Source: Aspergillus flavus
Lineage: Eukaryota; Ascomycota; Eurotiomycetes; Eurotiales; Aspergillaceae
DNA: 64,000 nt
Direction of reading: 5' to 3'
Assembly (NCBI RefSeq): GCF_009017415.1
Contig: NC_092409.1
Location: 2,170,001-2,234,000, forward strand
Position 1 is the stretch's first letter. Every line of letters starts with the position of its first letter. The translations under genes and the position numbers were made by a program. Below are positions 31,780 to 55,715 of the stretch, in pieces. Below the pieces are notes generated by a model. That model was given only the letters and a program-made list of their open reading frames with translations. It did no database searches and was not told the origin of the DNA.

Positions 31780-33106
31780 ATGATAATGGCATTTGATGAA
31801 GTTGTTACAGTTATCCTTGTTGTCTTATCTATCCTACTATACGGAACGTGCTCAACTGCTAGTCTCATTTCCTTTGGAACAAGCGGAGCTTCTACTTACG
31901 ACCAGAGCGACAGAAAAGACAGCACCGTCTCGCGCGAAACTTTTGCCTCTTTAGAAGAGCTCTCGCGCATTGTTGACGTCTCGTACTGTGTCGGCAGTAC
32001 AGGAGTACAGAAACCGTTCCGTTGCTTGAGTCGGTGTAATGAATTTCCGGGCTTTGAATTGATCACCGTGAGTTCTATGACCTCGACTGCCTTTTGACAC
32101 CACGGCGCAACTAATCCTTAATACTGGCTAGACGTGGAGCACCGGCCCCCTCCTCTCGGACTCGTGTGGCTATATCGCGCTGTCCCATTTCCCACATGCG
32201 AAGCGCATAATTATTGCTTTCCGTGGCACCTATTCAATCACAGACACTATAATCGACCTTTCAGCCTACCCGCAGGCGTACGTACCATATGACCCTAATG
32301 GTCGGGACGACCAGGAGTTGTTAAGATGTCGTAATTGCACAGTTCACGCGGGATTCCTGGCCTCGTGGCTGAACACTCGCCCGATCATCCTCAAACATGT
32401 TTCGGCAGCAAGGAAACAGTATCGTGACTATAAAGTGGTGCTCGTCGGTCACTCGCTTGGTGGGGCAGTTGCAGCGCTGGCTGGGCTTGAGATGCAAATG
32501 CGAGGCTGGGAGCCGCAGGTGACGACATTTGGAGAGCCTAAGATCGGAAACAAGGAGTTTGTCACGTTTCTTAACGAAGCGTTCAAGCTCGGTACGGTGT
32601 CACCATCAGATGATGCTCAGCAATGGAAATTCCGGAGGGTAACTCATGTAAATGACCCTGTGCCTCTCCTGCCACTAGAAGAATGGGGATATGAGATGCA
32701 TGCAGGAGAAATTTTCATTTCAAAGGCTGTTCTCCCGCCCTCCGAGTCCGACGTGATAATTTGCGATGGTGACAAAGACGCACGCTGCATCACTGGCGAA
32801 CAAAATAACATGAGAGCCATGTTTCACGAGATCAAGTTGAATGCGGCGAAGCACGAGTGGCTTTATAGCGTGGCGGACCTCACAGATCAGGTGGTTTTGG
32901 CTGAGAGTGACACATCTCCATCGGCAATGGGCTTTCCAAGCGGCGCTGAAAGGCAACAGATATCGCTTCGCCTGCCGTGGAATCTTATTCCTTCTAGATA
33001 CCGACTCTGGGAGCTATTCTTTGCTCACCGAGACTACTTCTGGCGGATAGGTCTCTGCGTTCCTGGCGGGGATCCAACGGGCAAGGAAAAGAATTATCAA
33101 TCCTAG
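31780..33106 (+). CDS. Class 3 lipase (alpha/beta hydrolase), membrane-anchored or secreted
   Basis: Lipase_3-family serine hydrolase acting on acylglycerols or related esters. The substrate is unknown. Two exons: 31780-32067 and 32132-33106, giving 420 aa. A second in-frame ATG lies at 31786. A hydrophobic N-terminal segment (VVTVILVVLSILLYG) acts as signal peptide or membrane anchor. Family landmarks are SLEELSRIVDVSYC, RIIIAFRGTYSITDTIID (oxyanion region), FLASWLNTR, and the nucleophile elbow VLVGHSLGGAVAALAG with catalytic Ser204. FGEPKIGNKEF and VTHVNDPVPLLPL follow, where the Asp of DPVP is the expected acid. The catalytic His is probably in the AAKHEWLY segment. Several cysteine pairs suggest an oxidising compartment. 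About 90 extra residues follow the His, longer than the minimal fungal lipases. Confidence 0.88.
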
Positions 33107-33713: not shown

Positions 33714-36700
33714 TCATTTCCCATGTCCTAAGCTTGGGATAATGACCGGCCCATATTTGACAACCGTTCCATAGGATCCGTCACCCTGGACCATAAAATC
33801 CACGGCAAGATTCAGCCTGCCTCCATGGACCACGGGTGCTTGGCCATACATCGCATTGACCGTTTCAGGATCATAGGCTACAATGGCAGCGTAATTCCGG
33901 CGACCCATCAGCTTACGGTGTTCGCGAGCCTGCCCCGTGACGTCTGTTTGGAATATCTCCATCATGTCCTCCTTCGTATCAGTAGGCTGCGAAGGAGAGG
34001 AGCGCTGCCCATTTGCTGGAACGTAGAGCGGTTTGTTACTGCTGTGAAGAAGCTTGATAACATATGAAGGCGGGGGATTGTTCACGACAGCGGACGAAAT
34101 GATTTGATACATGGTCTTGTAGTCAGAGGGATGGGCTGGATCGTGGACCAAGCCTGCGCCGCACACATTGACAGATCCGGAAAGGAACGTCATACGAAGA
34201 AACTTTTGATGTGCAATACCCTGTAGAGTGCGAATGAGGTACGTTCGCTCCAGATCCTACATGTACATAGAACTATTAGAGCTGAAAAAGAGCGGGGATC
34301 AGGAAACATCTTCAGACGCACCTTGGATTCATGAGTCCACTGATCTCGGAGCTCGTCCATCAAGTCGAACTCTCCGAACGGGCTTAATATGCCTCCCATA
34401 AGGCCAGACTTGCCTACAGCACGCTTTACGGAATCAAACCCAGAACCTACCACTTCTTTTGCGCCAACCACACCCGCCACAGAGCTCGTAACTTTGCCAA
34501 GGACATTGTATGCACCCGTAACAGCTCTTTTACCCGAAGCAACAGTGTTTGCAATATGTTCTGCAGTCTCCAAGCGTGGGTAAATGACAGGCACGGAGAT
34601 CATCCACAAACAGTGCTGTACGGAAGGAGGCAGCATTGCGACTTTGGGGAAAATACCTTGATATGTAGGTCCAGCGACAACTTGGTGTGGGTTGCGCTCC
34701 GACCGGCAATCAAGGCCAACGACAACCACGGCCGGTCCAAGGAACTTAACAAAATGCCAGCCGGTGCCAGTAATAGTGAATAAGTCCACGTCGGTACTGG
34801 CATTGCGAAGCAATTCAAGCGTCGTATGGTGCTGGAAAAGCAGATACATCTCAGTCCCAACGCGTCCAATGTTTTTGAACATATTCGAAAACTGCATATG
34901 TTCAGGGTACGATCCATAACCGTCAAATCTACCGGGCGTCAGCCGAGTCTACAGTATTATTCAGGATAGACGGTCACTCACATGTCATGATCATCAACTT
35001 GGCAAACATAAGGAATCTGGGCGAACGACTCCCGTAGGTAAGGCTGATCGAAGTGGCTAGTATAGTAATGAAAGTATGCATGAGAGACGTCTTCCTCATG
35101 TGCAGCAGTCCAAGGCATGGTCCTTCGAGCCTCCTTGCCGCGAATTACAAGCCACTGCTTAAGCGAAGGAATCTCTTTCCACATTCTATCCGCATAGATC
35201 TGTCCGCCTAAACACAGTTGAGCATGGAACCCCCCGATTTCATTGTGCTTCTGCATGATGTCCTTCCACATAAAACTCACGCCTCCAAGACGAGATCGCT
35301 CATTAGCATTTACATTGAGTGAAAAGTCATTCCCCGAAGTTGTGACGAAACGCCAATTCGTTTCATGTCGACCAGCGACCAAGAACTCGTAGCGCGTGCA
35401 GCCCAGATGTGACGTGATTGCGTAGGTCCATTTGGCGGGACCGGATTCGTTCATTTGCAAGTCAACGTCGTACTTGTAGAACGTCCACCTTTGATGAACG
35501 GCGATAGCGGATGCCTTCAATTGACGCGGGTTCGGTGACAGGTCGACGCTCTGATGGATATGGATCGTTGGAGGCTGCGCAGCGTCGGTAACAAGTAGAA
35601 TGGAACCTAACCAAATACCGCGCTCTAGATTCATATTGACATAGCGAAGGTATGGTCCAAAGTAAACACCATTCGTTGGCGCAACTTTGTATAAGTCCAC
35701 CCCACTACTCGGTGGGGGACCAGTAAACCCTGCAACAACTGGCGACTGTAGACTCTCATAGCCTGGAGTAAGAGGAATCCCAGGGGAGGCCAACGGTTTA
35801 CCAAAGGCCGATAAACCCGGTGAAGCGAGGGGATGGCTGCTATATATGCTCCCTACCGGTGATAGAGGAGTCTCGTTGAGGTTTAACGGTGTGGGCCCCT
35901 TTGGGAATTCCCACTGAGTCGACTGAGTAGGGAGGTGAATGTAGTAGTACTGGCCTGAGTTGGGGTCCATATGAGCAATCCATCCTTCGGGAAGTGGAGG
36001 GGGGGAGGCAGGTGGGATTCCTGTAGAGGTAGGTAACATTGCAGCTTGAGACTCTTGAACTATCTGCTGCTGCCCATCCAGGACGCCGGTCTGCGTGCCA
36101 TTCTGTAGGGATTGTTCTAATGGCTGTTCTTGCCTTGGGTCATTCGCAAACGCCGGGTGATCCTGAGCCGAAACTTCTAGTGCCGCAGAATTTGTGGCTG
36201 CATTGATGGGCGCCACCGTCGCGGGATGCACCGCTGATGCAGCCTGCTGCCCTGGAGTTGTCTGAGCGCGCTGCTTTTCATTTGGGTAACCTTGCGACGT
36301 AGCCGGGCCAGATACACTTGAATATGCCGGCGGAGGGGAAGAGCTTATGCGCATCCTTTCTAGATCCTGTTCCAGAGCATTTGATGGGATCCTTGGATGA
36401 TGCAAAGCTTGCCCTGCCTGCGCTGAACTTGCTGCTGATTGGGGTGGGAAGGGATTCCCAGGGAGGTTCTCCGTAGATACAACTTCCGCGCCTTGATATA
36501 CTGTGGGAGGCCCATGAGGTTGGCTCCCTGGCTGCTCCGTCGGCGTCCATGGCCTCTGGACGGGCGGTTGGCTCGTTGCTTGCTGACCCACATACTGCTC
36601 GGCTCTTCTGTGTGCTGCAGAGCTTTGGGCTTGCAAGCCTGCTAGAGCTGAAGTACCTGCGATACCAGAAGCCGCATAGCGTGCCTCGATATCCGAAGCT

Positions 36701-37419
36701 GGCGGTTGGCCCGGCTCAACAATTGGGGTTTCTGGAGGTGGAGGGGAGCCCCGCTGGGCGCGAGTTGTCGACGTCGATGCAGTTGAACTAATGCGATTGA
36801 TTGCACTGCTAGGAGTCTGTAGGCTTTGTGCTGTCGGCGGCCTCGCTGACGGACCTGACGAGGTTGCGGCCTGAGGAGGAGGGTAGTACTGCTGACGGTA
36901 GTTCGGGTGAACAGTCCCATCAAGTTGGGTACCGTTGGCAAGCGCCGGCGGAGCAGGAGTTCGCTGATATCTCGTTACAAACAGGCCCTCTTTGTCCGGA
37001 GTATCACCCGCAGGTGACTCAGGCAGGGGCTTCGGGACATTGCCTCGTCGTTCTGCCAAAGTAGCAGGTTTAGGTTCGCGACCATCTCGCGGCCGTAAAG
37101 CCGCCGGATAGTCCGACCTGGATGGGCCGGTGTTAGCAGGTATGGAAGGCATGTTATCTGGATTCGTGGGGGAGCCGCCTGTGCGTCCGCCATCAGCCGT
37201 CGGAGTTGGACGGCTGGTACTTGCGCTGCGCATTTTCTGGGGGTTTTGTCGGTCATCAGGGTATGGAAGGGGAGCACCCTGTGGTACAGGTGATGGTGTG
37301 TCTCTCTTGTTAATCCGCAACGGTCCAACAATGGGGGGCTCGACCGGCGATCGTCCCGGAGTATGGATGAATAACTCCTCGTCGGAGTGATTCCCTTGAC
37401 GGGCCTTGCTGGGATTCAT
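33714..37419 (-). CDS. WW-domain PhoD-like metallophosphatase family protein
   Basis: Three exons: 34982-37419, 34322-34928, 33714-34256, giving 1195 aa. The first about 470 residues are disordered and rich in Pro, Gln, Ser and Ala. A WW domain follows (about 475-510, PLPEGWIAHMDPNSGQYYYI then QSTQWEFP, both signature tryptophans present). The C-terminal about 620 residues are a PhoD-like phosphatase domain of the fungal PhoD_2 type: NGVYFGPYLRYVNM, a putative metal-site loop VCQVDDHDIFDGYGSYPEHM restored across intron 1, then SGSVNVCGAGLVHD and the end VDFMVQGDGSYGTVVKYGP. Whether it is an active phosphodiesterase cannot be read from sequence. The WW domain implies binding to Pro-rich partners, possibly its own tail. 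The intron position inside the DDHD(I)FDG motif is notable. Confidence 0.88.
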
Positions 37420-38113
37420 TATGTATCCTGGTACGAATAAGCTATGTTACGTCAATTCTGTTGTCAAACATGGTCAATGTGATTTGAGGTAATGAGGGGG
37501 ATCTTTAGGAGAAGGAAAAAGACGCGCTGTAGAGATGCGGGGGAGGGGACAAAACCTACCTGGTGGTGGTAGTAGTTATAGTCACTTTCACCTCAGGCCC
37601 TCAGCCGACGAGGACAGGAAAAGGGCGACAAATGTGAATCCACGAAATGAGGTATATTCTTGTGGAAAATAGGCAGCTTCGTTCCAAATGCTTCGGCGAT
37701 CACCTTGCAAAGGTCATAGTTTAGCCGCCGAGGGGTTTCTGGTGTAGACGCTTTCGCGATCATCATTGGCTCAGTCAGATGGAGCACCACTTTCTGGGGG
37801 GGTTTTTGAGAACAAATGATATCGCATAATTCCCTTGTTGCCCGAACAGACTTTATGTTCTAGCAGACCTTTTCTAATTATAATAAATAGACTTACGGAG
37901 TATGTTCCAATTGCAGGATCGGCCCGCTTCTGAGATCCATGGGTCACCGCATTCAATGCTTGCCTCAGGTTGGTATTTATATATTACGATCATTCCGTGG
38001 TCTCGACCTTCACGAAGACATCAAAGATTAATTATATGTATATATGTCATGACGATGAACAAATAAAACCCAGTGAACATAATGCCATCGAAAATTCCAA
38101 CCTTCCTCCCTTC
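37420..38113. other. Intergenic region between WW-PhoD gene and transcription factor
   Basis: 694 bases separating two minus-strand genes. It contains the WW-PhoD promoter and the transcription factor's 3' UTR. One exact TACGGAGTA copy is present (37894-37902). No gene is seen. Confidence 0.4.
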
Positions 38114-40739
38114 TCATCCGTAACTGACTAAACGAAAGCCACGTTCAGCCAAGAGTTCAACCCAGTCAATCCATGGGAATGGTCTACCACTATTACCACT
38201 GGATCGCTGCATCTGGCACTCATACACCAATTGGAGCATATAGCACGTTGTAGACGCATTATATCCGATCTCATTTTCTTCGATGTTTGAGAGCAGCTCC
38301 CATGCCTTGACTTTGAGGTCGATCGTCTCCGCCGCAATCCCCGCCAGGAATAAAGGGAAGATGATGAAGTGCGGTAGACTGCCTTGAATGTTCATGATCG
38401 TCGCCTCTGCGTGTTGTAAGATCATGGTCGTGTGGTGATGCACCCTCTGCTCGGGGATTTCGCCCAAACCGATGCTCTGCCCAGGGCACGGGCTGGTGGT
38501 GTAGTAACAGAGAAGTGAAGTATGGAAGAGTAGATTCATCTGATGAACTAGCCTTAGCTTGGAAAACCGCGATGTAGTACAACGAAAAAAATGGACCAAC
38601 CTGCTCGAGAATGCTTTGTAGTTGTTTTGGCAGCCTCGTTTGCTTCTCGGCCCAGAAGCGAACCTCCGAAGAGTCCCAAAGTTGCTTCAAGTCTTCATGT
38701 AGATTGATTGGGGCGTATGGATCAGATGCGCCCAGCTTCTTCCTGCCCGCAATAGCTAACCCTAATTGGACAGCTAGCCCGAACATGTCTCTGTACAGCT
38801 GCAACAGTAATGTTGGGTTGTCAGGCTCATGCGATCCGATGACATCGGTCCCACAAGAGTCGATAGAAGAAAGAGAAGACCCGGGCCAGGGGAGCAGGTC
38901 GCTTCCTAAAACCATCTTGACATAGTCTCCTGTACCTGCGCCACTGAGAAGGGCATACAAGTCAATGTTGCAGATCCACCAGATGACGAATGGAAATCGC
39001 TCCACTCCAAGAGCCGACTGCCTCAGGAGAGTAATCTCGAGCATTTGGGATATATAATGAGACCAGAGACTCGACCCATCTGGCTTGGCAACCATGACCT
39101 TCAGAAATTAGACATCAGCCTTCTTTTGCGTCCGAGATCTCCGATACCGAGGTTGCAAGAAACCTACCTCGTGTATGAGCAGTAGAAATTGCGTAAGAAA
39201 TAAACCGTCCGATAGAAGATTGTCGCTGTGGTGGAGTATATTCTGTGGAAGTGGGAAATCCTGCCGGTGAAAATTCAGGGCGCTCATATTTATACAGCTT
39301 CCTTGACGGTCTAGACCGAGCTTAGATATTGCCATTATCGCATGAAAAAGCTTTATAAACGGTGGTTAGCCATTGTACACATAATAGGATAACTGGAGAA
39401 GCGCGGCATACTGGTGGGCAGATACTGGCTTCTTGTTCCAAAACTTCGACTCCCAGTCTAGGACCGTGTGAACCGTCGGGCCAGATCCCTTGGGGGACTA
39501 GTTTGGGCCATATCACATTGCGAAAATGTGAGAGTAGCATAGCCTCATAATCCGTCAGCGTGGTTTGTTCCTGTGCGTTGTAATCATCTAGAGCGCTCAA
39601 ATCAGCTGAATATACTGAGACTGTAGATGAATGTGAGGAGTCTTGAGGGTCAGACTCCAGCGTTCGAGTGGAACCTCTGTAGTCTGAACACAGGTATCTC
39701 CTAGCATCAGGAAATGTCTTGAGTATGACAACATTTGGATCGTTCACCTCTGGATTGTCATTCCGTTGGCTACTTTGCCCACTATCTACTAAGGGGCTTG
39801 ATGTTGAGCTCCTGGATTGCCCCCCAGATCTTTCATCGGCATGTCCAGGAAGATAAGAGAAGCTCTCCGGCATTACTATAACAGTATAAGTGCCGGGAAT
39901 GGACGACTGAGCCTTCCTTTCCCGTTCCTCGTCAGAGGTGAGTGTCGCGAAGGAAGGCAGCAGATCGGGTAGTCCGTAGTCTGCAGATGGAGGCCTAACA
40001 CTTCTACTCGTATGAGCTGTTTATATTATCAGAATTAGCGTATTGTACGTAGCATTAGGCAAGAAGGAAATGGAAGATGGTCTCACGGTCCCAAACAAGA
40101 TTGCCTACTGTTTCCACGTCTGACATCCGTTCGATTACTCGACGAGTATCGTCTCTAAAGGACAAGCGTGGCCGGTAATCACAATCATGGCCTAGCCTGG
40201 TACATTGCTTGCTCAGGGCAAATCAGCCTGTGATTCCGTCATCCAAGAGAAGAGCTTTTTGTTTTCAAGTACATTACACCGAGGATGCTTCTCGTCACAT
40301 TTGACTGTACGTCCGTTAAGTCACTACAACATTCATAGGTCTCTTCTTGTTGAAGTAGTATTCAAGGATCATCTCACCTTTGCGACTCTGTTACATTCAC
40401 ATTAGGCAAGTTAGCATACTAGGCCAAGGGGCTAGTTTGTATATAAAAGGAACTATGGCGATGGGGGTATCGGCGTACTCTACACGTCCTAGAAGTAAAA
40501 TGAGCTAAAAATTTCCACCAAACCATCAGAGTCCTAGCGCAACGAGCGTACCAGCAACCTGTCCGAGATCTCGGTGGAAACCGTCCATGAGAGCGCGGAA
40601 TTGAAGTCTTCACGGGCACAGCGGGGTTGACACCGGAGCTCGAGGTTGCACCCTTTGGAGCGATTATGGGTAGCCACAGAGAGCATTTTCTCGATGTCTT
40701 GCCCCGTTTGTTCGGCCGGACTAAACTTATGACGGTCAT
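38114..40739 (-). CDS. Zn(II)2Cys6 fungal transcription factor with micro-exons
   Basis: Nuclear DNA-binding regulator; targets unknown. Nine exons: 40552-40739, 40479-40488, 40378-40387, 40273-40304, 40087-40207, 39412-40016, 39168-39350, 38601-39098, 38114-38539, giving 690 aa. Exons 2 and 3 are 10 nt each and exon 4 is 32 nt. They are called because only this path yields a perfect zinc cluster: RTGCWTCRSRKVKCDEKHPR followed by CNQCTRLGHDCDY, with cysteines at 62, 65, 72, 79, 82 and 89 (C-x2-C-x6-C-x6-C-x2-C-x6-C). The rest shows a Ser-rich linker, then a helical C-terminal region typical of the fungal-TF accessory domain (HSDNLLSDGLFLTQFLLLIH, FPFVIWWICNIDLYALLSG, FPLFLAGIAAETIDLKVKAW). 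All junctions keep frame. The N-terminal start at 40739 is the only in-frame ATG but less certain. Neighbours give no clue to its regulon. Confidence 0.85.
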
Positions 40740-42494
40740 CGTGGCGATCTGATCTTCTATCAGTGAGAGTCAACTCCCGACTCATAGAGAAACAGGTGGA
40801 TACGTCTGGGAAGCCCGCGTTCTATCTATGCAAAGCCCAGGCCAAGGAGAGCATGAAGAAATCGAGATATGGTAACAGTAGAAGGATATGAAGATGAAGC
40901 TAGAATACAATGCCAGGTAGACCGAGACCAGAATATGTATGATGGCTACATTTTTTTTTTTACCTTTGATCAGAGGTGGCATGAAGAGGCGAAAAAGAAA
41001 ACAACAGTCATAGCACGCATTTCGACTGCAAGACAAGCTTAGGCATCGAGAATCAGACAAGGCCCAGAAAGCCCCCTTCATCAGCCAGCCTTGTACTGGT
41101 GGCGGTCTTCATGTACCTTACGGTCTCAATTGAGAGGCAAATCGGAAGGTCGTTAGCAACTCCCATTTGGACAGCCCAATGTTTGTTTGCCCCTCTAGAA
41201 AAAGAAAGATTGGATAAAAGAGATTAGTTTTGGCATCCTAGTCAGCATCTACATTAGCGCGAGAGAGCGAGCAGGACGAACGGTGCATTCCGAACAGCAG
41301 ATGCCAACCATGTGGGATGGATGAAGAATCTTGCGGGTCGGATGATGACCTGGTGTCTTTTTTCGACTTCTTCTTTCCCCTCACTCTATTTTGCTTATTT
41401 TTTTATTCTCTCTCTCTCTCTGTGTGTGTGTGTGAGTGTGGGTTTCTTTTTTTCTTTTTCTTTTTCTTTTCTTTTTTTTTTTTTATAAACCCAAGAGGTC
41501 AACATCACTTGTGATCAAGACGATGCTTCAAGGGACCAAAAGTCAGCCGGTCATCTGACCCAATGCAGTAAAGAAAGGCGATTCCCAGAGTCAGCATTTC
41601 GTCCAGCCTACTAAGACTAAATTAGCATCTGGTAATGGCCCGGCAGTTGGGTAGGTTTTAGTTCGTTAATGACATGACAGTTCGGAACTTTATCAGGTGC
41701 CCGAGATCCAGTCAGTCAGTTTCCTCCCAGTGCAGCCACCACGACTTGGGAAGATTAAATTTCTTTATTATTGCACTATGCAACTACTCTAGTTGATGCT
41801 TCTCGTTCCTTGAGTCTATTCCCCAATATACTCCCCTAATGCTCTTCCTTTTTCTTCCCTGTAATCTATTCCTTCTGAGCGTGTTGGATGATTTCCTAAA
41901 ATTTTCTTCCTACTACGTAGTAGGGTCAACTCTGTAGTGGTGGGGTCTAGCCCTAGCTAGTACAAGGGAATAATCCTACTTCATGCTGACCCGCAGGTAC
42001 TAACGGACTACGCTAATGCTACAGGCACAAAGACATGGATAGCACCGGCCACTCAGAAATAAACCCTGTGAATTGCGGGATCCCCAGGCCCTCAGAGACA
42101 CGCGCCTGGGCCGGTCTGGATCTTCTTCCCCAAGCGGATATGGTTTTTAATTTGCATAGCCTTCTACTACTACTACTAGTGGGCCTAAATAAAAAAAGAA
42201 AACCCACTTCTAAACCAACAGGATCTAATAACTCATTCCCATGTATGATTGGCTGGCAGGCTCAGCCGAACCATTCACTCATGGGTGCATGTTTGTATCA
42301 TGAAGGATTTGGATTTTGTATATGGGACTTTTTTTTTTAGGGCATCTCATCCTCATCGAACGAAGGCTATCGGTCACTTTAAGTTCCTCTGATAGGCTGA
42401 CGCTTACTAGTTGAATAATGTCGTAGCCCTTTCGGATGCTTCCGGTAGACCCTAGCTGCTACCCATGCTCGTTGCGACGTGGACAACTCGTGCC
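40740..42494. other. 1.75-kb intergenic region
   Basis: Lies between the transcription-factor start and the 3' end of ECM29. It holds a microsatellite (41407-41440) followed by a T-rich tract. A 101-codon plus-strand frame (42035-42340) has no recognisable content and ends in a T-run, so it is not called. The region upstream of the transcription factor probably contains its promoter and leader. Confidence 0.4.
41407..41484 (+). repeat. (TC)n-(TG)n microsatellite followed by T-rich tract
   Basis: A run of TC dinucleotides (41407-41420) passes into TG dinucleotides (41421-41440, one interruption). T-rich TTTCTTTTTC-type sequence then runs to about 41484. On the minus strand this is a purine/CA tract upstream of the transcription factor. 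Probably length-variable. Confidence 0.85.
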
Positions 42495-45400
42495 TCATTG
42501 CATGAGTCTCGCTAGGGCTTGGTCTAGTGCTTGCTGCACCGGCCCGGATCTTTCGCCCTTCCTCCAGGATTTCAGTAACTCGCAGAGTTCCCCATCGATG
42601 TCAAGCCCAATATCAAGTTGTCTGCAGAGCATAATGTATGACATTGCGGCCTGCGCACGTTCTCTTCGGATTGCTTCTGCAGTCACATCTATCTGGCGAG
42701 ACAACATCTCACCTGCCAGGGCCGCCAAAGACTTTTGTACTTTGCGCAGCTTAGGTTCCTCGTCGTGTGATTCTAAAGCCCCTGTTGTTACTCTACTGAA
42801 GAACATGCGGAGTTGCTCGTACAGCGTGATCTGCACATTTCTGCCTCCACTATCCAATGTTTCGTGCAGAAGTCGCTTTATGTCTGACATAGAATTATTG
42901 GTAGCTGTGTATGTAGTCAGCAAAGCCTATATAACGGCAAAACGAGGGAGAATTGACTTACCTTCAGCTGATGCGGCGCATGTTAGATTGATACATTGCA
43001 AGAGACATTTGACACAAGCTACCAAAGTATCCTCTCGGGTTTGTCTATTGGTGGTTAGTCATTGATAGGATAAAGGGATGTCACGGTTGTACTTGTTCTT
43101 TTGACCGCTGCCTGAGTCGATGTCCATTGAGTCCTCTCCCTCGTCAAATTCACTGAGCACCCGAGAAACAATATCAACGGCATCTGGCATCAAATTGAGA
43201 TCTTGGCGCGCTTGAGCAATCCCACCAAAAGCAGTGATAGCATGTGGGCGATATGTTGGGTTAATCCGTTTAGCTTCCCTGATGGCGATGGCCTGAGAGG
43301 TTGGTGAGCACTTCAGGCCAAATACTTTTGAAGAAAAAAGGGACGGAAAACACAGAAAGAATTTACCTTCATTGTATCACCAATTCGAGGCTTCTCTAGC
43401 CATAGCGTCTTTGCTTGGCTGGTAAATTTCGTAAATGCTTTCACGACAACTTCTTTACCATCCCATGTTTTACCAGCCAATGCTTTCTCCAGAATAGGCC
43501 ATAGGTACTCGCTAGTGGCAAGATCCAGTTCGGAGTCTAGTGCCATGATGCTATTCGCAAATCCCAATGCTGCAGTATGTTTGACGATCCAGCGAGGAGA
43601 ATCGAGATTGTCTGAAACAAGGCTGGTGATCTCTTTTATATATAGCGATACCGCACGGTTACCGCCCACATTATCCTGCCATGTCTTCTCAAATGCTTCT
43701 TGAACGTGTTCATCAGTATCGTACTTGGAAACAAATATGAAAGGCAAAGCAGTTGCAGCAAATGCCATGAACCGGTCATTGGACAACTTAGACGTAGAGT
43801 GTAAAATCTCGGCTGCGATGATTCGCTGGTTTGCGTCTTCTGCCGTTAGATACAGAGACTTCGCATGTTCAATTGTTTTCAACACTCGGTCATCTGAAGC
43901 TAGTCGCATGAGGTAGCCTATTGATGTACAATAAGACGCACTGACCGTGTCATTGCGGTCAACGACGTATTTTATAAGAAGCTGGATGAAACGATCCGCA
44001 TATGGGCGGAACAGGACTGTTCTCATGCTCAGGAGAACTAGTACACGACTGCAGCCCACTTTCGTTGGAAGCCCAACTGCAGAGCGAAGCACGCTTTCCA
44101 GATTCCCAGCGAATTCCCTCATGCTAGTTTCGTCGAGCATATCTATCAGATACCGCTCAATAACTTCCATCATTGGAGATGTGCGTATGCTGGACAGCCT
44201 CATTTTGTCGATTTCTTGGCCTGTTAACCCATACTTGTCTGCATTAAGATGGACATAGTTGACTGCTTGTGGCTCTAGGGAACTTAGAGAGTTCAAGAAT
44301 TGTTCCATCACGCGGGGAACAAATGGGCGCAACGGTTGACCAGGGCTTTTCTTTATTATCTGGATTAAAGCTCCGAGAGCAAATCCTTGAACCTCTTGAA
44401 CATCAGATTCCATACCTTTATCGCTCAATAAAAACGGGATAGTGCCTGCTAGCATAGTGCCTGCTCGTCTTGTCTCGGTATCACTTGTTTCCAGAGTACG
44501 GATCACCGCGTTGGTTATTGTCTGGCAAAGCTTCAGAGCAGCCGCTCGAACTGACTCCTTGATATCATCTATAAGCTTGAAGGCCTTTAGAAAGATTTCC
44601 TCCATATACTTAAAGTATTTCTCTGGCTGACGCCCTTGAATCAAATCCGCAATAGCAGCACAACTTGCCTGTCGAACGCGCCACTCTCGACCGGCCAGCA
44701 TGCTTCTCAGCAGATCGTCCATAATTTCATCAAAATGATCGCTGATGATTGCAGCAGGATCCTTGACCAACGCCTGCCATATTGTGTTCATGGACCGCTG
44801 CACATTTGGGTTCGGATCAAACCGGTAGCGAAACAATTTTGGGTAGATTTTGGGATTCTTGGCCAGGTAGCCATTGGCGCTGGAATCGGAGAATATAGTG
44901 CTAATACCTAGCTTGCTAAATGCTGCACGATTGGTCCAAAGGGCATTATTTGACGCCAAGGACATGAATCGATACACAAGTGTGGGGTCGCCAGCCTCAG
45001 AAGCTAGGTTCATAATATCTTTGTAAGTATTGACTGATGACCCGCCTCCAGTTGGTAGAGCACCTGGCTCAAATAGTTCGGTGTCTTCGCTGACTTTGCC
45101 CCCCGCAAGATTGGAGCCAGAGGCCGTGAAAGAGTCAACTAAGTCGCGTACTAAGTCATCCTTTAACGTCTGGTCGCCGATATCGTACACAAGGCTTAGA
45201 CCTTGGGCCCCAGTCTCTTGCACCACTTCATCTCTATCCGCGAGCAGACGCGTGAATGTCCTCTGACATTTACGCAGGCGGTCCTGCATTTGTTGTAGGT
45301 GACCACAATTCTTCACCAGACATAGTAACCATATCGAAGACGCTTTCCTCAGAGAAGGCTTTGATGCACCGCAATCAGAAATGATCTTGTCGCACATTTC

Positions 45401-48286
45401 GGCCAATACCGCATCAGAGAGTTGCCAGGTGGGGAGTTTTTCGTCGACGTCAAATTCCGTGGCCATAGATTTAGAGGTCCATCCCGCTGCAGCACTACTC
45501 AAAGCCTCGCCGATAGTAAAATGTGTCTCTGGGCTACGGATTTCATGCAGGTTGTGTAAGCAGTTCAAGAATTTAGTAAACTGCGGGTCTCTGTGGTCGA
45601 CCTTTGAAAATGACAAGGATAGGAGGCCTATTGCTGTGATCGCTGTTTCACTCTCAGCCTTCGCGTCCGGCTTCAACTTATCAACGATAGTATCCCACTC
45701 GTCGTTTGAAAGGACTGTAGTAGACAAAACTCCGGAGAGACTGAGCTGGCCGATGGCCACCTGTGCAGACCGTCGAAGCAAAGAATCGCGTGCATCCCTA
45801 ATGATATCAAAAATCGTGGCAATGAATAGTTTGACAGTCGTTTCCGGTGCTTTGTATATGACGTTGCGGAATGCCAGTCGGCTTAAGATATACGCGAGCG
45901 CAAGGACTGCACCTCGAATTTTAAGCACAACTTCGCCAATGGCAGATTTCCAACTTTCGATAGGGACTGATAGTTCTGAAAGGAGTTCTCTCAATTTGTT
46001 TTCTGAAAATGCAGGGTGAGAAGCGAGAATTCCAAGTGCGCGTGCTGCGAGGTTCTGAAGTTCTTGATCATTACTGTAAAGGGAATTTTTCAACGTGATA
46101 ACCATTGATACCATGGGCTCAACGATGTCGTTCGAAGCTAGAGAGCAAATGCCGATGAAGTTTTCTCCACACTGCCACAGACCTTTTTGAGCCCCGCCAC
46201 CAAGGCCAGAGAGAGCACTTGTCAAGAATAGCAGCACGGCTTCTTTGTCGGAAGTTTCGATGTAGCGTTTCACAGCGCACCGGGCTTGTTCATCGGATGT
46301 AAGAAGCACGTCCAATTTGATATCCCAGTCTTGCTCTATTTCCATGCTTATATTCGAACCCGAGAATGATTCCCAAAGCAGAATGTTGCGAAGAAAAGTA
46401 ATTGTATAATTGAACGCCTCCTTATAGGGACCTGATAATATTTCTGCTGCAGAAAGACCTGGTACCACAGTGGACGCAGTCGAACCCAGGAGAAAGCGCG
46501 CTGTCTCTGGAAAATTCGGAAATTTGAACCATGACGAGCGTGAGTCAGATGTCACCGATGTAAACCATACCTTGTCTTTAGTGGGATTTAGAAGACGATA
46601 CCAATACGGGTGCAGCCCTTTCTTGCCTTCTTCTACGACTTCCTGATGTCTTTCAGATCCGCATGCGACAGCCATGAGGTCAATCCAACGAGCCACAACA
46701 TCACTATACGGCAAGAACCTATTGGCGAAACGTACAGCAGCATACTGAGTTCGGCGAACGACCTTGAACCCAGTTACAGGGTCCTCTTCCCCAGGGAGGC
46801 TATTCATCTGACGAAGCAAGAAAGGTCGCAAACTTTCTTGGAACTCTTTATCCCAGCTATCCACCGAGGAGTTAAGAATGCTTCCTAATGCTTGTTCGAT
46901 ACTCACAAAGATTTGAGCGCTGGAATCGTCAGAGCTTAGTGATATGAAAAGCCACCTAATGAGTTCGAAGCCCGAGATAGCAGTTTGCTCATCTTGTGAT
47001 TGAAAATCCACCTTCGGCACCAATATGCCGATGCTCTCGTAAGCAAGACCTCGTAAGCTTAGGTCCGTTGCAGGCAGCCTCTGTCCACTGGACCCTGGAC
47101 TCGGCCACCCTTGGGAATTGATAAAGTCTCTAAGGCCCGCTATAACCTTTGGCGCGATTTGCTTGAGGTCTGTGGGAGATCCGATGCGAACTACCCACGT
47201 GGTAAAAGTGAAGATCTGGGTTCGCAACTTCGAGGCCTGCAATCCTTGTGAAGATCTTGCAACGTCCGAAAGAAGGCCCTCTTCAATCAACCGAAGGACA
47301 TTAGCTGTCTCCGTTGCAGCCCTGAGTGATTTTCCCAAGTAAACTAGAATCTTAATTTGTAGCGCAGTGCGCGCTGGGCTTGCGCCTTCAGGTTCCACAG
47401 AACCAAAGTACAAGGTAAACAGTCGACGTACAACATCTATATTTTCAAGAGCTGGTATGAAGCGCTTCAATATTTCCTCGCCAAGATCAGCTAGGCGGGA
47501 ATTTGGGTCGGCAGACGCCACCAGAGCAGGGAAAAAGCGCTCCGAGTCTGTGAAGGCTCTGCTACAGAGAAACCTTAGAGCCGTAGCCTTCGTCTCGGTA
47601 AGATTCAAACCCCCATGTGAAGATGGGTTCCATGTTTCGGACAGGGAAGCGCCCTTGTTGAGGAATGCGTAATCTGCTGGGGACAATCCCGGACAGGTGG
47701 AGGCGTTCTTATCCGCAGGGAAGAGAATCAATAATTTTTCAAACCATGACGACAAGAATTCAGTGTCCTTGTCGGATAGACCTAGCCGAGATTTCAGTTG
47801 TATGTCTTCGGTGCTGTCCTTCGGCGGAAGCTTTAAGAGAGGTAAGAGCCGCAGGACAAGGTTAAACACAACAGCCGCCTGTTCGTCGGTCGATGTTCCA
47901 ATTTCGGAAATCCCTTGGAGCAATGGAAGCAGAATCTCGATCCTCGCACTGGCGCCTAAGCGATCAATGCCTTGTTGGATATAGATTAAGTCGAAGTGTC
48001 TAATGAGCTTGGATTTCTGCTCCTTAAATTGCTTCAGCAAAGCTGCAACTGGAAGCTTAATGGACGGAGCTTGCACTCTGTTGTTGATATGCTGACACAC
48101 TGCAATTACTTTGTTGCGGACTGCAAGGCTCTCAGAGCCTAACTTTAGCAGTAAAGGAGCCAGATACTTATTAAGTAAAGCATCGAGTTTCTCATCTGTA
48201 TCTGCTAACGCGATCCTGAATTCGACGTTGGATATTAAATTCAGCTCGCGAGCCTCAGAACTTGCTGACGCGGCTTGTGCAGCCAT
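42495..48286 (-). CDS. ECM29: Proteasome adaptor/stabilising protein Ecm29
   Basis: Very large HEAT-repeat protein that binds the 26S proteasome, tethers or inspects 20S-19S association and links it to vesicles and stress responses. Four exons: 43367-48286, 43093-43292, 42962-43044, 42495-42904, giving 1870 aa, the same size as yeast Ecm29. The start MAAQAASASSEARELNLISN leads into VEFRIALADTDEKLDALLNK and YLAPLLLKLGSESLAVRNKV, the diagnostic N-terminus. Recognisable later blocks include PFLLRQMNSLPGEEDPV, DIMNLASEAGDPTLVYRFMS and YRFDPNPNVQRSMNTIWQAL. The C-terminal exons add RPHAITAFGGIAQARQDLNL and a helical end. The 13 residues preceding the chosen Met in the same frame are probably leader. 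Two core proteasome genes lie in the same window. Confidence 0.93.
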
Positions 48287-48659
48287 AGCAAAAATGAAAT
48301 TTTTTTTAATGAGAACGACAGACACAAGGTCGTCCCGGCAGTAGAGTTAGGAGATAGGTGGACTTGAGATAGTCTGATGTACTCCGTACTACTAAGTAGT
48401 ACCCCACACGCCTCACCCAGGCAGAGACGCTCACGTCAGTTACAGTCCTGAGGCCGGCAATAAGCTTCTTCCCCAATTAGGAAATGTTTGTATTGTATTA
48501 GTCATCATGTATTGTAATTACCTAGCTAACCGGTCAATGAGACAGCATGACCCTAAGGCCCTACAAGAGTCAAATTCAACTAGGAGCGTTTACTTTGAGA
48601 CTTATGGGCTGGTATACGTGCATATATATATGACATTGTACATCGCCCCCTAACGCTAA
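48287..48659. other. Short intergenic region ECM29/IRC20
   Basis: 373 bases between two tandem minus-strand genes. It must contain the ECM29 promoter and the 3' UTR of the SNF2 gene. One exact TACTCCGTA copy (48380-48388) lies near the middle. Confidence 0.4.
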
Positions 48660-51600
48660 TCAAAAACCTGCTCCAGCTCTTCTCCGGTGCTCTGCTGCCT
48701 CACCTCTTAGGAACCTTGCTACCTCTCCGCTGGCACCTGCCTGGAAATTATTGGCCTCCTTCTTTGTTGGATTGCCAAAAAGGCACCTCCATAAGTCGTC
48801 CTTTTTAACGAGTTCCCCGCCAAATGCTCCTCCAGCCATTAAATTCGACAGAGCTGCATCTCGGATTTCTAAGGAGTTTGCCGAGTCTATAGCCGCCTCA
48901 GTAATATTATCTGTTACAGCTCTTCCGTTTTCGACATCTGCACATAATGGCTCCGCTTTTTCCTTCTGCACTATATGAGCTAGACGACGTGACACGGAGA
49001 GTTCGTAAATTGATTCTTCGACGGTGTCAGAAACTAGATACATCCAAACGGTGGTTGGTCGGTGCTGACCAATACGGTGTACACGAGCGATAGCCTGGAG
49101 CTCGATTGCAGTATTGATAAGCGGCTCGCAAAGGAAAACGTGGGTCGCGTTCACTAGGTTGAGCCCTGATGAATGGGCCCTCGCGTGCAAGAAAAAGCAT
49201 TCAATCTAGCAGGGATACAGTTGAGTACGACAATTCCCCGAGCTACTTGGGAAGACCGGGGTCATGAAGCTTACCGATGGGTCACTCTTGAACTTTGATA
49301 TACCGTCTTTGCTGTCAACACTGCTAAAGCCAATCTTAAACCTGTGGAACGCAATGGCTAGAACCTCTAAAAAGTCCTTATATTGCGAGAATATCACAGA
49401 CTTCCCACCAGGGTCATGGTGGCGCAGCCATAGTATATGACGTGCTAGCGTGTCAATCTTCGTGCCGAATGAACCGTCTAAATCGACGGTTTTAATCTCT
49501 CTCAGAGTGCCGGAGCTTATATCAGTATATATCGAGTTCTTTGGTCGACGTTCAGGCTCAACTTTGGCTGGCGGCTTCTCCTCTTGCACAAGAAACTCCT
49601 GCGGCTTGTAAGTGATTTGATAGAAGTCATTAGCTTTCAGACGCTTTTTGCATGTCGGGCAAGTTCGATGTTGATGCCACCACATGCGCAAGCAATCTTT
49701 GCAATACTTGTGGCCACACACTGTTAGGACACCTTGATGTTGTTAGCTAGTCTTATAACATGTCTACAATCATAGTACCGTGCTCACCAACTTCAAAGCC
49801 GGATTGGCAAATGACACATATCTTTGACGAGTCATCTGAGCCTGATTCGTCTCGGAGGTGGATTAGGTAACGATGTTTTGCTCTCAATGCGGAAATCTTT
49901 TCGTCTATTATCTCCTCTTGCCTGAGCTTTGCAGAAAAAAGCGCCTCATTCAAGGGTTTACCAGCGCTTTCTTCGTCGTACGGGGCCACTGTATCGGAGA
50001 TTTGTTGAAGCTGACGATAGTATTCAAGTCGATTGTTCATAGTATCTCGAAACATTTCCACCTCCTTCTCCATGTTTGTTGCAACTTTAGCTTGCTCAGA
50101 AGCCATCTGACTCGCATTCTGAAGAACTAAGCTTACAAGTTCGAGTTCAGCGCGGGCGCGAGAGTTCCCCCCGCTTGCCTGCCACTCAAGAGAGGTCGCA
50201 AGACTTCGAAGCTCACCAATGATGCCGCGAAGTGAGCCCAGCTGTGGGTCGGGCTTGATTCTACTACGAGTGTTCATCATCTGTAGAAAGAGAGCGGGTG
50301 AAGGTCCTTCTCCTTTCTGTGCTTGGACAATTCCGCTCTTGACTTCATGGGCAATGAGAACATTTTTCTGTCCAGTCAAAGCATCGTGGCGATCAGCGAA
50401 CATTGCACGCAAGGCCTCCATGTAAACATACACCTCATCTTGATGCTTTGTAGACTTTTCATATTCGTCGCCCTCCAGCTCTGATTCATCCTCTTGGTCA
50501 ATGAGTGACTCGGAAAGAAACTTGATCATGGTCTGACGCCATTCATCGTACTGGGCAGCATGTTTGTTCATACTATCACAGAAATTTTCAAGTTTATCGA
50601 GTATGCGGTGGGATTCAAGCCCTTTGCTCCATAGCTGAGGTTTCATTTTGGGGATATTAACAAACTGATTCTTTTGTGCTCTTTCTCTGATTATTTTCAT
50701 GAAGTGGCCAACCTTTCGCGAGATCTCAGCCAACATCTCCTTTCGAATCAGCTTTGCAGACTCGTACGCCTCAACTTCGCGTTTTTCGAGTGCTCTAGAC
50801 TCTTCGGAATCGGGCCTAGTGAGCTTGGGGTCTGTTTTCATTTGGAAATAGGCATTCCCGGTAAAGAAAACACATATATGTTGAACTTCAAGAGCAGCAC
50901 GCAGCCTCTGACGCGCTCCTCCTCGAGTGTTCTTAGCTGCTTCTTCTGTTTCATCCTCGCTTGCTGTGTCAGCAGATGTTACATCTCGATCCACGTTGAC
51001 GGCATCCATCCGACGTTCCATACGCTCTGAGTGCAACCGATCCCGACACTCCTTGACAATTGCATTAGCCCGCTCTAATGACTTTGACCAGAGGCCGAGT
51101 GCTTGTTGCCGGTGTTTCGCATTTTCCAGCAACTGCCCCCGGCGCAATTGTGAAAGAAGTAAAGAGCGCTCCTCTGCGTGTATAAGTGCGTCATTCTGAT
51201 CGATCATGACCTCAAGAACTTCAGCCACGGAGCGCAGCGGTCCAGTACCGGTACCTAGCCCACGAAGAGGCTTTCCAGCAGGATGGAGACAAGTTCGGCG
51301 AAGTTTGGTTAACCAACTTCGCATTCTTTCGATTATCGATAGGTCATCAGGATCCCAATCACCATTCAAGGGAGCGCCAGATAGATTGAGACCACATGCT
51401 CCACACATTTCTTCAAACAACTGTCCGTAGCGTTGTTCCTCAACTGCCGTAAAAGGGACCGTGATGACGATTCTCTTCTGAGGAGGTATGTGGAGTTCAT
51501 TGCGAACATGAACCTTACTATGTCGGAGGGCAATCATACTAACAATGTTCGCTAATTCAGTCCTGAAGCTCCCGCATAACCTATGCCAGATAACACCACA

Positions 51601-53262
51601 AAATGGTTCGTAACGGAGGAATAGTAAAAGACCGAGGAGGTCAGATATATCTTTTCGGAGCGGCGTCCCTGTCACAGCCCAAGCATTTTGACGAGGAATC
51701 AAACGGGCAACCCTTGCTGCATTGCTGACTCCACTTTCAATCATCTGAGCTTCATCGATACAGACCCGCCACCAAGAAATCCGAACCAACGGTGTTCTCC
51801 TTGGTTCAAATCTCTTCTTATGCCGCAGATTCCTCTGTGGTACATCGCCAGAATAGTGAACTTCACGCGCAAGAATATTATAAGTAGTAAGTACGACATC
51901 TTGGTCTGCGAGCAATTCGATTAGTTCTTCATCCGACAATGACTGGTGACGCTGGATACCAGTGTAGTGGAAGACGCTGAGTCCAGGTGCATGCAGTTTG
52001 ATTTCCTGTTCCCACTGTTCAAGAATTGCGGGTGGTGTTATTATTAGGGTTGCACCTGATGGCCTCAAGCCATCATGACGATGGTCTGGGAAGGTTTCTT
52101 CAGGGGCTAGGTGTCGGCGATTCAGACAGATTAAACTTATGATTTCAACGGTTTTCCCAAGTCCCATTTCTTCGGCGAGGATTCCACCTCGGAGATGGTT
52201 GCCCCCGTCAAACCAGTTCGCAAGGTCAGTGGCGACAATCATGAACAGTTGGCTGGCAAAACAAACTCGTCCATCTGCATCAATGAATTCCCGAAATGAA
52301 GCGGGCAGGCCCCCTTTCAACGTATCTCTGACAGGAACCACTTGCCCGTCAGCCTGAAGCTCCACGCCTTCCCTTTGCAATAGCCACCTGACGGCCCTCC
52401 TTTGGAATGGGAACATCTGACATTCGATCAAACTGCATTTAACCTCTGCTGATGATTCAGGTGTGTCTGGAGGAACGTATACGTGATCATAAAAGTCGCG
52501 GGGGGACCACGAAAGCTGTCTCTGACTGTGTCGTTCCTGCTGTGAAGCAAGATCCTCTTGCTCCTGAAAGACATATCTAGAAAATACTTTTCGTGCTCCC
52601 TCCACCAGTTGATTATTACCGAGAATATCCAGAGAATCCTTCCACAAAATAATTGTTTCAAGACAGAAGGAGCTCTTTCTTTCGGGAACAGTATATAAAG
52701 TGGACTGATAGCACACGATGGGAATCTTTCTGGGAAGGCGATCAGCACAAACAAGGCTACTGGCGAACTCCAGGTCCTTGCTGAATTTTATAAACGGTGG
52801 GTCATGTGATTGATATTCAAAGACAGTTTCTCGGTCTACCGTCGTTGCTAGCTCTAGCTTGAACCAGTCAAGTGTAGTCGTGCCGACGCAAACATTTTCT
52901 GCAGCAAAAATATGGACGGGTAACTGGGAGAAATTATCAAAAGATCTACCTGGGTCATCCTGGATCGGGCTTGCGGACGCAAAATCCTAATCAAGGTCAG
53001 TGAATCATCCGAGCTAAGCCCTTCACGCATTAGCTTGGTGGCATACCAAGTACAAGTGAAAGCGCGCCAAGGGAATGTAACCTCGAGGTACTCTAGTATC
53101 CGAAAGACCATTAAGCTCTCTGAGGCTCTGAATACCCGAGGTCAACTTGCGACGCTTGTTTGGGGGGGCATCACTGTCGAGGTCTTCCGGGGACCTCCGC
53201 GCAAGAGCAGTTATCAAGATATCTGGCACTGCGCCTGGAGGTGTTGGTGAACAATTAGACAT
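48660..53262 (-). CDS. IRC20: SNF2-family ATPase with RING finger (Irc20/SHPRH type)
   Basis: Swi2/Snf2 DNA translocase and predicted E3 ubiquitin ligase of the Irc20/SHPRH group, linked in yeast to recombination and SUMO/ubiquitin turnover on chromatin. Five exons: 53047-53262, 52950-52986, 52898 down to 49788, 49275-49732, 48660-49205, giving 1455 aa. Helicase motif I/Ia reads GGILAEEMGLGKTVEIISLI (about residue 320) and motif II is CIDEAQMI (DEAQ form). A long charged helical insertion with SHPRH-like character follows the first lobe. A C3HC4 RING (ICVICQSGFEVGVLTVCGHK, then YCKDCLRMWW and TCPTCKKRL) sits before the second lobe, at about 1110-1155, and an intron splits it. The second lobe carries GKSVIFSQYKDFLEVLAIAF, SSGLNLVNATHVFLCEP and motif VI ARVHRIGQHRPTTVW. 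The tiny 37-nt exon 2 is inferred from frame and acceptor quality. Confidence 0.9.
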
Positions 53263-53947: not shown

Positions 53948-55715
53948 TTACTTCAAGAAAGAGCTATGGTCGCTATAGTCATTTGACTTTGATGGCTGGT
54001 CATCTCTATCATCTGTATCGGATACAACGCTCCCGTTCACTGCTCGAACTGACCTTTTGTAGTGACCGAGGATACTGTTGCTCTCAAATACATCAGTTGT
54101 ATCACCAAAAGATATTGAGCTGTTATCCGTGGGTTGATAGAATGCTTCGCCCCATTGTTGAGTGTGCAAGCGTGATGGTCCCGAAGTGAGAGTATAAGTA
54201 GAAATACCGGTTGCCCCTGTTGTTTTGATGTCGAGACCCCTACTCATCCAAGCGTGGATAGATTGCCCCGCATCGGTAGGGCGATACGTCTGATTCACAG
54301 ACAAGGGATATTCGAATTGGACCTCATTTGATGTTTGGTTAGCTCCAAAGGCTATGATAGTAGACCTTCCAGATGTGTGTTGATTGGTCGATTGGCTCAT
54401 GCCTTGCTGGCTAAACAGACCAAAATTGGAATACGTGAGGTTTTGACTCCATTGAAATGCGGATGATTTTATAGAAAGGGTCCTTTCACCAACAACGGAG
54501 TACGCCAGAGAGTCATTCCCTCCAGTCTGATTCTGGACAAGGCTCCGCGTGGCTTTGAATTGCGGAGTAGGTGCATCAACGTAGGGCTTCTCCGTTCCGA
54601 GGCTTGTACTATCCAAGGCAGAATCACTCAGATACAGGAAGATATTTCCCGTCACAGCCCAGTATGAACCGACGCTGTCGGAGAGCGTAACGGTCCCGTT
54701 TTGTGCAACACTCAAGCCGACAATCTTAATCTCAAAAGAATGAGGCTGTCCGTCTTTGAGAATGGGGAGGAAGGGCGAGATATCGATTTCAGGTTGTCGC
54801 AGATCAAAGGCGTCTATCCCAACAATCGGGCGCCAGAAACCTGGTGCAACCCCTCCGGTGAAAATTACAGGGAATGGCCATATAATACCAGCAAGGATAT
54901 CATCGACATAGAGTTGGACTTCGCGAAATGGGGAGTAACCATAAAGCTCGCCCATTGTGGTATTGAAAGCTTCCGTATCGTACGAGAAGACATTGGACCA
55001 CCAGAACTCCTCAGTAGACTGACCACATGCGGAAATGGACACAACTGCACGCGAAGTATTAGGAGGTATCTGGTACAGTGTCTTTGTATTATCTCCAGGA
55101 ACAGTAAAGACACTCGACAAGTTGGAGGCTGACTTCCTAGCGGATATTGGGAGAATTACATCTGCGGTTCTGGCATGACCCTCGCAGGAGAAGTATGCAG
55201 TCAGGGTCACACTGAAAGGGCCGGTATATATATCATTTATGATATTTCCAAGGTCGAAAATTAGTTTTTGCTGTATCTGCCATAGTGCGTTATACTGCGA
55301 CATATCTTTTATATAGGCCCAGACAATTCCGTCGGCCGTAGGTTCCGCTGTCGAGGTTCGGAATACCTCTGTATCACCAAGAAAAAGAATTGCTAACCGA
55401 TCAAATTGGCGACCTTGGGAGGTAACCGTAAGGTTAATCTTAACCGTGTCGAATTCACATTCAGGGGGGCTGTAGTATCCTATTAAAAAAAATCAATATA
55501 TTGTAAAACTGACTGCGCTTGATGCTCTATATACCTATAAAGGGGTGTCCATAGCTCGAGGCAAACACATGCTCCATCAGCAGCACATTTTGGTTACAAT
55601 GTGTGCCGTCAACTCCACCGTATTGGACAGGCTGATAAATTTGAAATACTTCTAATGTGCCCTCGGAAGGAGCAACTAAAAGAAAGCAAAGCCATAAGAC
55701 TGTGCGAAGCAACAT
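53948..55715 (-). CDS. Peptide-N4-(N-acetyl-beta-glucosaminyl)asparagine amidase A (PNGase A)
   Basis: Secreted glycoamidase that removes N-glycans, PNGase A family (plant and fungal type). Two exons: 55535-55715 and 53948-55479, giving 570 aa. The ATG at 55715 opens a clear signal peptide (MLLRTVLWLCFLLVAPSEG). The N-terminal domain shows LEVFQIYQPVQYGG and, across the intron, GYYSPPECEFDTVKINLTVT, then GRQFDRLAILFLGDTEVFRT and STAEPTADGIVWAYIKDMSQ, the most diagnostic block. FDLGNIINDIYTGPFSVTLT and PGFWRPIVGIDAFDLRQPEI follow. Several N-x-S/T sequons (for example NLSS, NTSR, NTTM, NDS) suggest the enzyme is glycosylated. The frame is open 17 codons upstream of the ATG but without a start. 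The intron is 55 nt. No membrane segment is seen at the C-terminus. Confidence 0.9.

Follow-up and report, generated by a model that had tools for sequence, protein, structure and literature searches.

Two consecutive 10-nt micro-exons are predicted to complete the zinc cluster of a Zn2Cys6 regulator in Aspergillus flavus

Analysis of a 64,000-nucleotide stretch of the Aspergillus flavus genome (hereafter the window) points to a putative Zn2Cys6 / Fungal_trans_2 regulator with a zinc cluster that would be assembled from five exons, including two consecutive 10-nt micro-exons (Table 1). We consider it quite probable that both micro-exons are normally included and are indispensable for the DNA-binding cluster, that this layout is old and common to at least Aspergillus and Penicillium, and that it falls into a blind spot of gene finders. 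The gene occupies positions 40739 to 38114 of the minus strand, and its nine exons add up to 2073 nt including the stop codon TGA, the total that the original prediction had given, and encode 690 amino acids. Re-reading of the strand also agreed with that prediction on the positions and sizes of the cluster exons (188, 10, 10, 32, and 121 nt), on the four GT..AG introns between them (63, 91, 73, and 65 nt) and on the presence of GCTAAC in the 91-nt intron, whose branch A precedes the 3' splice site by 23 nt. The four introns that follow exon 5 are likewise GT-AG.

Table 1. Exons and cluster introns of the putative regulator and open frames in its neighbourhood (positions in the window).
Feature	Position	Strand	Details
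Exon 1	40552..40739	-	188 nt, ATG to TG| of the Trp63 codon; contains Cys62
Intron 1	40489..40551	-	63 nt, GTACGC..CTAG; length divisible by three, no in-frame stop
Exon 2	40479..40488	-	micro-exon of 10 nt, GACGTGTAGA: completes Trp63 with its first base, followed by Thr-Cys65-Arg
Intron 2	40388..40478	-	91 nt, GTACGC..ACAG; CTAAC
Exon 3	40378..40387	-	10-nt micro-exon AGTCGCAAAG: Ser-Arg-Lys and first base of Val70
Intron 3	40305..40377	-	73 nt, GTGAGA..ACAG
Exon 4	40273..40304	-	32 nt; Cys72 and Cys79; phase 0 end after Asn80
Intron 4	40208..40272	-	65 nt, GTACTT..CAAG
Exon 5	40087..40207	-	121 nt; Cys82 and Cys89 (cluster end), Met108 (ATG at 40126)
Exon 6	39412..40016	-	605 nt; by homology
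Exon 7	39168..39350	-	183 nt; by homology
Exon 8	38601..39098	-	498 nt; by homology
Exon 9	38114..38539	-	426 nt including stop TGA
Class 3 lipase frame	32132-33106	+	PF01764, 99.4 bits
WW domain and PhoD_2	34978-37446	-	Long open frame; first 160 of 543 PhoD_2 positions at frame end, 316 bits
Proteasome adapter ECM29 frame	43313-48346	-	ECM29_N, 562 bits; upstream of the regulator, same strand
SNF2-related domain frame	49753-52986	-	Pfam
PNGase A domains frame	53948-55492	-	Pfam
GMC oxidoreductase domains frame	62349-63896	-	Pfam

Joining the end of exon 1 (TGC TG|), GACGTGTAGA, AGTCGCAAAG and the start of exon 4 (TC AAA TGT) gives the reading GCWTCRSRKVKCDEKHPRC, after which the cluster goes on as NQCTRLGHDC across intron 4. 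Both 10-nt exons have canonical splice sites on either side and lie within the size range of 3-30 nt used for micro-exons (PMC11121469). Intron 2 carries the best branch site among introns 1-4, while intron 1 lacks a good CTRAY near the 3' end, with CTCAT 12 nt away and CTGAT no closer than 37 nt, and the sole candidate in intron 3, TTAAC at 11 nt, is weak. In intron 4 the acceptor that keeps the frame is AAG, and rival AGs are found 4 and 20 nt upstream. Eight ATGs occur in the 361 nt upstream of the chosen start codon (40740-41100, minus strand), and the corresponding upstream frames could influence translation of the regulator if the leader is long. Additionally, a pyrimidine-rich tandem repeat of TTTTTC units adjoined by CA and GA runs is present on the plus strand at 41449-41482, about 710 nt upstream of the regulator ATG. 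Among the neighbours, the WW/PhoD_2 gene probably goes on in a further exon, since only the beginning of the PhoD_2 profile is covered where its frame ends.

The claim that a perfect Zn2Cys6 motif appears only when both 10-nt exons are joined was borne out by enumeration of the possible exon chains. For the 247-nt gap from exon 1 to exon 4 we listed every chain with up to three exons of 3-40 nt and GT-AG introns no shorter than 40 nt. With exons 1 and 4 kept fixed and a pattern for the conserved motif that had been drawn up after inspection of the real sequence, the motif was obtained from a single GT-AG chain out of 73, the 10+10 chain using both micro-exons, and from none of 2000 dinucleotide shuffles of the 247-nt stretch. 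The spacing C-x2-C-x6-C arose from three of the 73 chains, two of them with stops, and some match to it was present in 189 of the 2000 shuffles, where stops were not excluded.

Zn2Cys6 clusters have the spacing C-x2-C-x6-C-x5-12-C-x2-C-x6-9-C, and the six cysteines of the 690-aa protein fall within this range, in the exact form C-x2-C-x6-C-x6-C-x2-C-x6-C that had been predicted, with a Pfam match to Zn_clus (PF00172) at residues 60-94 scoring 39.6 bits against a cut-off of 21. The only other Pfam domain at E <= 0.001 is Fungal_trans_2 (PF11951), which matches residues 536-686, corresponding to the end of exon 8 and exon 9, over profile positions 250-381 of 384 with 23.4 bits against a cut-off of 21, and for which no single stretch passes E 0.001 alone; relatives score higher for this domain (56 bits for P0030 and 39.3 bits for P0009). 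Residues 1-120 match ten PDB sequences, including HAP1 (CYP1), PPR1, and GAL4, the best at 2e-07. Altogether, the 690-aa protein looks, from its predicted sequence, like a DNA-binding regulator of the Zn2Cys6 / Fungal_trans_2 type. PacX of A. nidulans was considered as a characterised relative and discarded, given that its cluster is reported to lie near the C-terminus, and a P. oxalicum gene tag led to no paper.

It has been described that glucose-dependent isoforms of the Trichoderma virens regulator Xlr2 arise from a 20-nt micro-exon in its GAL4-like domain that had been missed in annotation (PMC11121469). In both regulators a portion of the Zn2Cys6 cluster comes from a micro-exon overlooked in annotation, but that of Xlr2 is single and 20 nt long and codes for PCRRCE with two cluster cysteines, and its isoforms were seen in RNA-seq by its authors (PMC11121469). 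Moreover, Xlr2 has PF04082 where the A. flavus protein has PF11951 (PMC11121469); PF04082 was not found in the latter by Pfam at E <= 0.001, and by predicted domain make-up the regulator is not a close relative of Xlr2. In Fusarium, the CYP621A gene is reported to contain a one-nucleotide exon confirmed by reads, which resembles our case in lying in a conserved motif, being needed for the frame and challenging gene finders, and differs from it in being the single 1-nt exon of an enzyme gene (PMC12940212). Since micro-exons in conserved fungal domains are thus known (PMC11121469; PMC12940212), the suggestion that the arrangement is very unusual for fungi applies to two such exons in a row and not to micro-exons as such. 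Among the open-licence papers listed by our searches, none described, in its title or the beginning of its abstract, a pair of adjacent micro-exons within the zinc cluster of a fungal protein. Single micro-exons in fungal domains are known, and what is new here is apparently the tandem and old arrangement.

The homologue search returned 161 proteins, of which the 120 listed were analyzed; 108 of these are Eurotiomycetes judging by their names, from which the genera were assigned by hand. The best homologue is a protein of A. flavus AF70 with 92% identity, and a protein of A. oryzae RIB40 is 100% identical in the best local alignment, which covers 35% of the query. The cluster was intact in 63 and not intact in 57 of the 120 listed models. 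Intact clusters were found in 15 of 49 listed models from Aspergillus, 13 of 30 from Penicillium, 6 of 8 from other Eurotiales, 7 of 10 from Onygenales, 10 of 11 from Chaetothyriales and Verrucariales, 3 of 3 from Leotiomycetes and 9 of 9 from unnamed contigs, which leaves 34 of 49 and 17 of 30 not intact in Aspergillus and Penicillium, respectively. The core encoded by the micro-exons mostly reads CWTCR[S/T]RK[V/I]KC in intact homologues, the six cysteines are invariant across 15 aligned intact homologues, and the cluster of A. bertholletiae P0002 is identical to that of the regulator. Five intact models of about 700 aa (P0030, P0066, P0091, P0106, and P0112) come from short 'lgn' contigs of 2.3-3.6 kb, which might be cDNA; these models were not counted as proof.

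The damaged models bear traces of exon borders. The end of exon 1 is missing in 16 of the 57 non-intact listed models, and the 41 others were sorted by where the cluster match ends. Thirteen of them (six from Aspergillus and seven from Penicillium) continue as Trp-Tyr, as expected from read-through of TG|GTAY, and another 13 show Cys62 followed by a split codon; eight (seven from Penicillium and one from Aspergillus) contain exon 2 and end directly after Arg66, three have Trp and then something else, and four, all from Aspergillus, are cut at Gly61, where there is no border in our gene. One or more further models also end off the borders seen at the A. flavus locus. To the right of the gap, re-entry at Gln81, with which exon 5 begins, was assigned to 10 listed models, and five carry exon 4 in the +1 frame (xNVMK). 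Among the latter, P0056, P0080, and P0100 have this frame straight after Arg66, as expected if the 10-nt exon 3 is omitted, and in P0057 and P0062 the residues ahead of it resemble, by eye, a frame-shifted exon 3. The A. flavus AF70 model P0001 reads GCWYVRCARTLM|SRK|AHTSRS, in which exon 3, by comparison with the window, is preceded by a read-through and followed by exon 6, and Pfam found no Zn_clus in this model. The Onygenales models P0099, P0108, and P0117 have a different 5' end and enter at TRARKVKC, so that the first micro-exon may be missed in them. Intron 1 is in frame and stop-free here and apparently also in P0050, which was not counted as evidence because intron-retaining models are selected for that property.

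Coverage of conserved residues was calculated over the 79 models from Aspergillus and Penicillium (28 intact by definition) for residues conserved in at least 95% of the intact homologues. It amounted to 0.81-0.87 in exon 1 up to Cys62, dropped to 0.67 at W63, to 0.47-0.52 in exon 2 and 0.46-0.47 in exon 3, and then rose to 0.58-0.62 across exon 4 and to 0.77-0.82 over the part of exon 5 that ends at Arg107; at residue 119 and beyond it was 0.84-1.0. The steps at exons 2, 3, 4, and 5 coincide with the borders of the A. flavus gene, while the last rise (W119 0.89, D120 0.87) is off any exon border, still within exon 5, and comes after Met108, where some models start. Coverage and model footprints together support, at the level of predicted proteins, four introns in Aspergillus and Penicillium. 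Because the model ends and the coverage steps fall on the same borders, the micro-exon layout probably occurs in both genera and is frequently annotated wrongly; outside Eurotiales the introns may be missing. Searches for orthologue DNA in viral and GTDB contigs gave 25 and 120 pattern matches, respectively, none of which was confirmed by tblastn.

Within the A. flavus genome (37.74 Mb in 8 contigs), a strict pattern with exon 2 in context matched this locus once and had no match in the reversed control. A looser pattern retrieved the locus and six other places, and no zinc cluster was seen there when the 400-nt surroundings were read by eye in three frames. The same Pfam family, PF00172, matched at least 150 other places in the genome (150 scored of 503 candidates), and, unlike at the present locus, many of these matches run through almost the entire 39-position profile within a single open frame; the remaining matches are partial, and introns are thus possible in those genes.

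Introns of fungi are short, and pairing presumably takes place across the intron, a mode known as intron definition, for which the Xlr2 paper cites work on S. pombe by Romfo from 2000 (PMC11121469). Each of the short introns considered here (63-91 nt) would be recognised as such a unit, and the introns would probably be removed one by one, so that each micro-exon would come to form the margin of a longer exon. As a 10-nt exon has little room for the assembly of both neighbours at once, removal in sequence would be the simplest mechanism. Gene finders would often miss such exons, leading to published models without a DNA-binding domain. The sequence itself, the single fitting exon chain and the traces in protein models are observed, and the orthologue layout, the actual splicing, its order and the constitutive inclusion of both micro-exons are what we infer.

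Alternatively, a signal could control micro-exon inclusion or intron retention and so generate forms with and without a working cluster, as the glucose-dependent isoforms of Xlr2 would suggest (PMC11121469), and an in-frame Met108 just past the cluster could provide a 583-aa product lacking it. Our calculations make such a regulated switch rather doubtful, since 11 of 13 computed skipping or retention events lead to early stops, after 62-99 residues when exons 2, 3, 4, 2+3, or 2+3+4 are skipped or intron 2, 3, or 4 is retained, and after 106 residues upon retention of introns 1+2, 1-3, or 1-4. The other two events keep the frame and damage the cluster, which makes a switch conceivable: retention of intron 1 would place 21 extra aa between Cys62 and Cys65, for a total of 711 aa, and loss of exons 3 and 4 together would remove 14 aa (676 aa). 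Pfam scored Zn_clus at 41.7 bits on the N-terminal piece of the spliced form and at 33.9 bits, from profile position 5 on, on the intron 1-retained piece, and found nothing up to E 1 on the piece without exons 3 and 4. The original prediction that intron retention removes the DNA-binding domain is thus not fully borne out for intron 1, whose retention would not abolish the domain outright. Besides, the skipped forms seen among the homologues are gene models, and the fact that 10 nt is not a multiple of three was given little weight because the 20 nt of Xlr2 is not one either.

A related and quite improbable reading is that the tandem micro-exons, predating the split of Aspergillus and Penicillium, act as an obligate splicing gate, with a signal-dependent damaged-cluster form as antagonist; given that most failures would lead to a stop and the rest to a damaged cluster, the efficiency of splicing would then set the level of active regulator. 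It is highly improbable that the micro-exons are never used and that the product starts at Met108 without a DNA-binding part, as in the models of A. oryzae RIB40 and A. fumigatus: P0004 and P0086 do begin at the matching Met, but most of the 79 Aspergillus and Penicillium models keep the conserved residues of exon 1 as far as Cys62, the cysteines do not vary in the aligned intact homologues and the exon chain is far from chance. Nested introns of the stwintron type, reported from Aspergillus nidulans (PMC6616335), are barely credible here, since introns 1-4 each have their own complete GT and AG, no splice signal of an outer intron is split by an inner one and the coding sequence requires both pieces in between.

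If the preferred reading of two normally included micro-exons is right, an orthologous group of fungal regulators would often be listed without its intact DNA-binding domain, and transcription factor inventories would therefore undercount such regulators. Moreover, the gene would offer a test bed for how a spliceosome of fungi copes with exons in a row that are too short to give much space for simultaneous assembly on the introns at either side.
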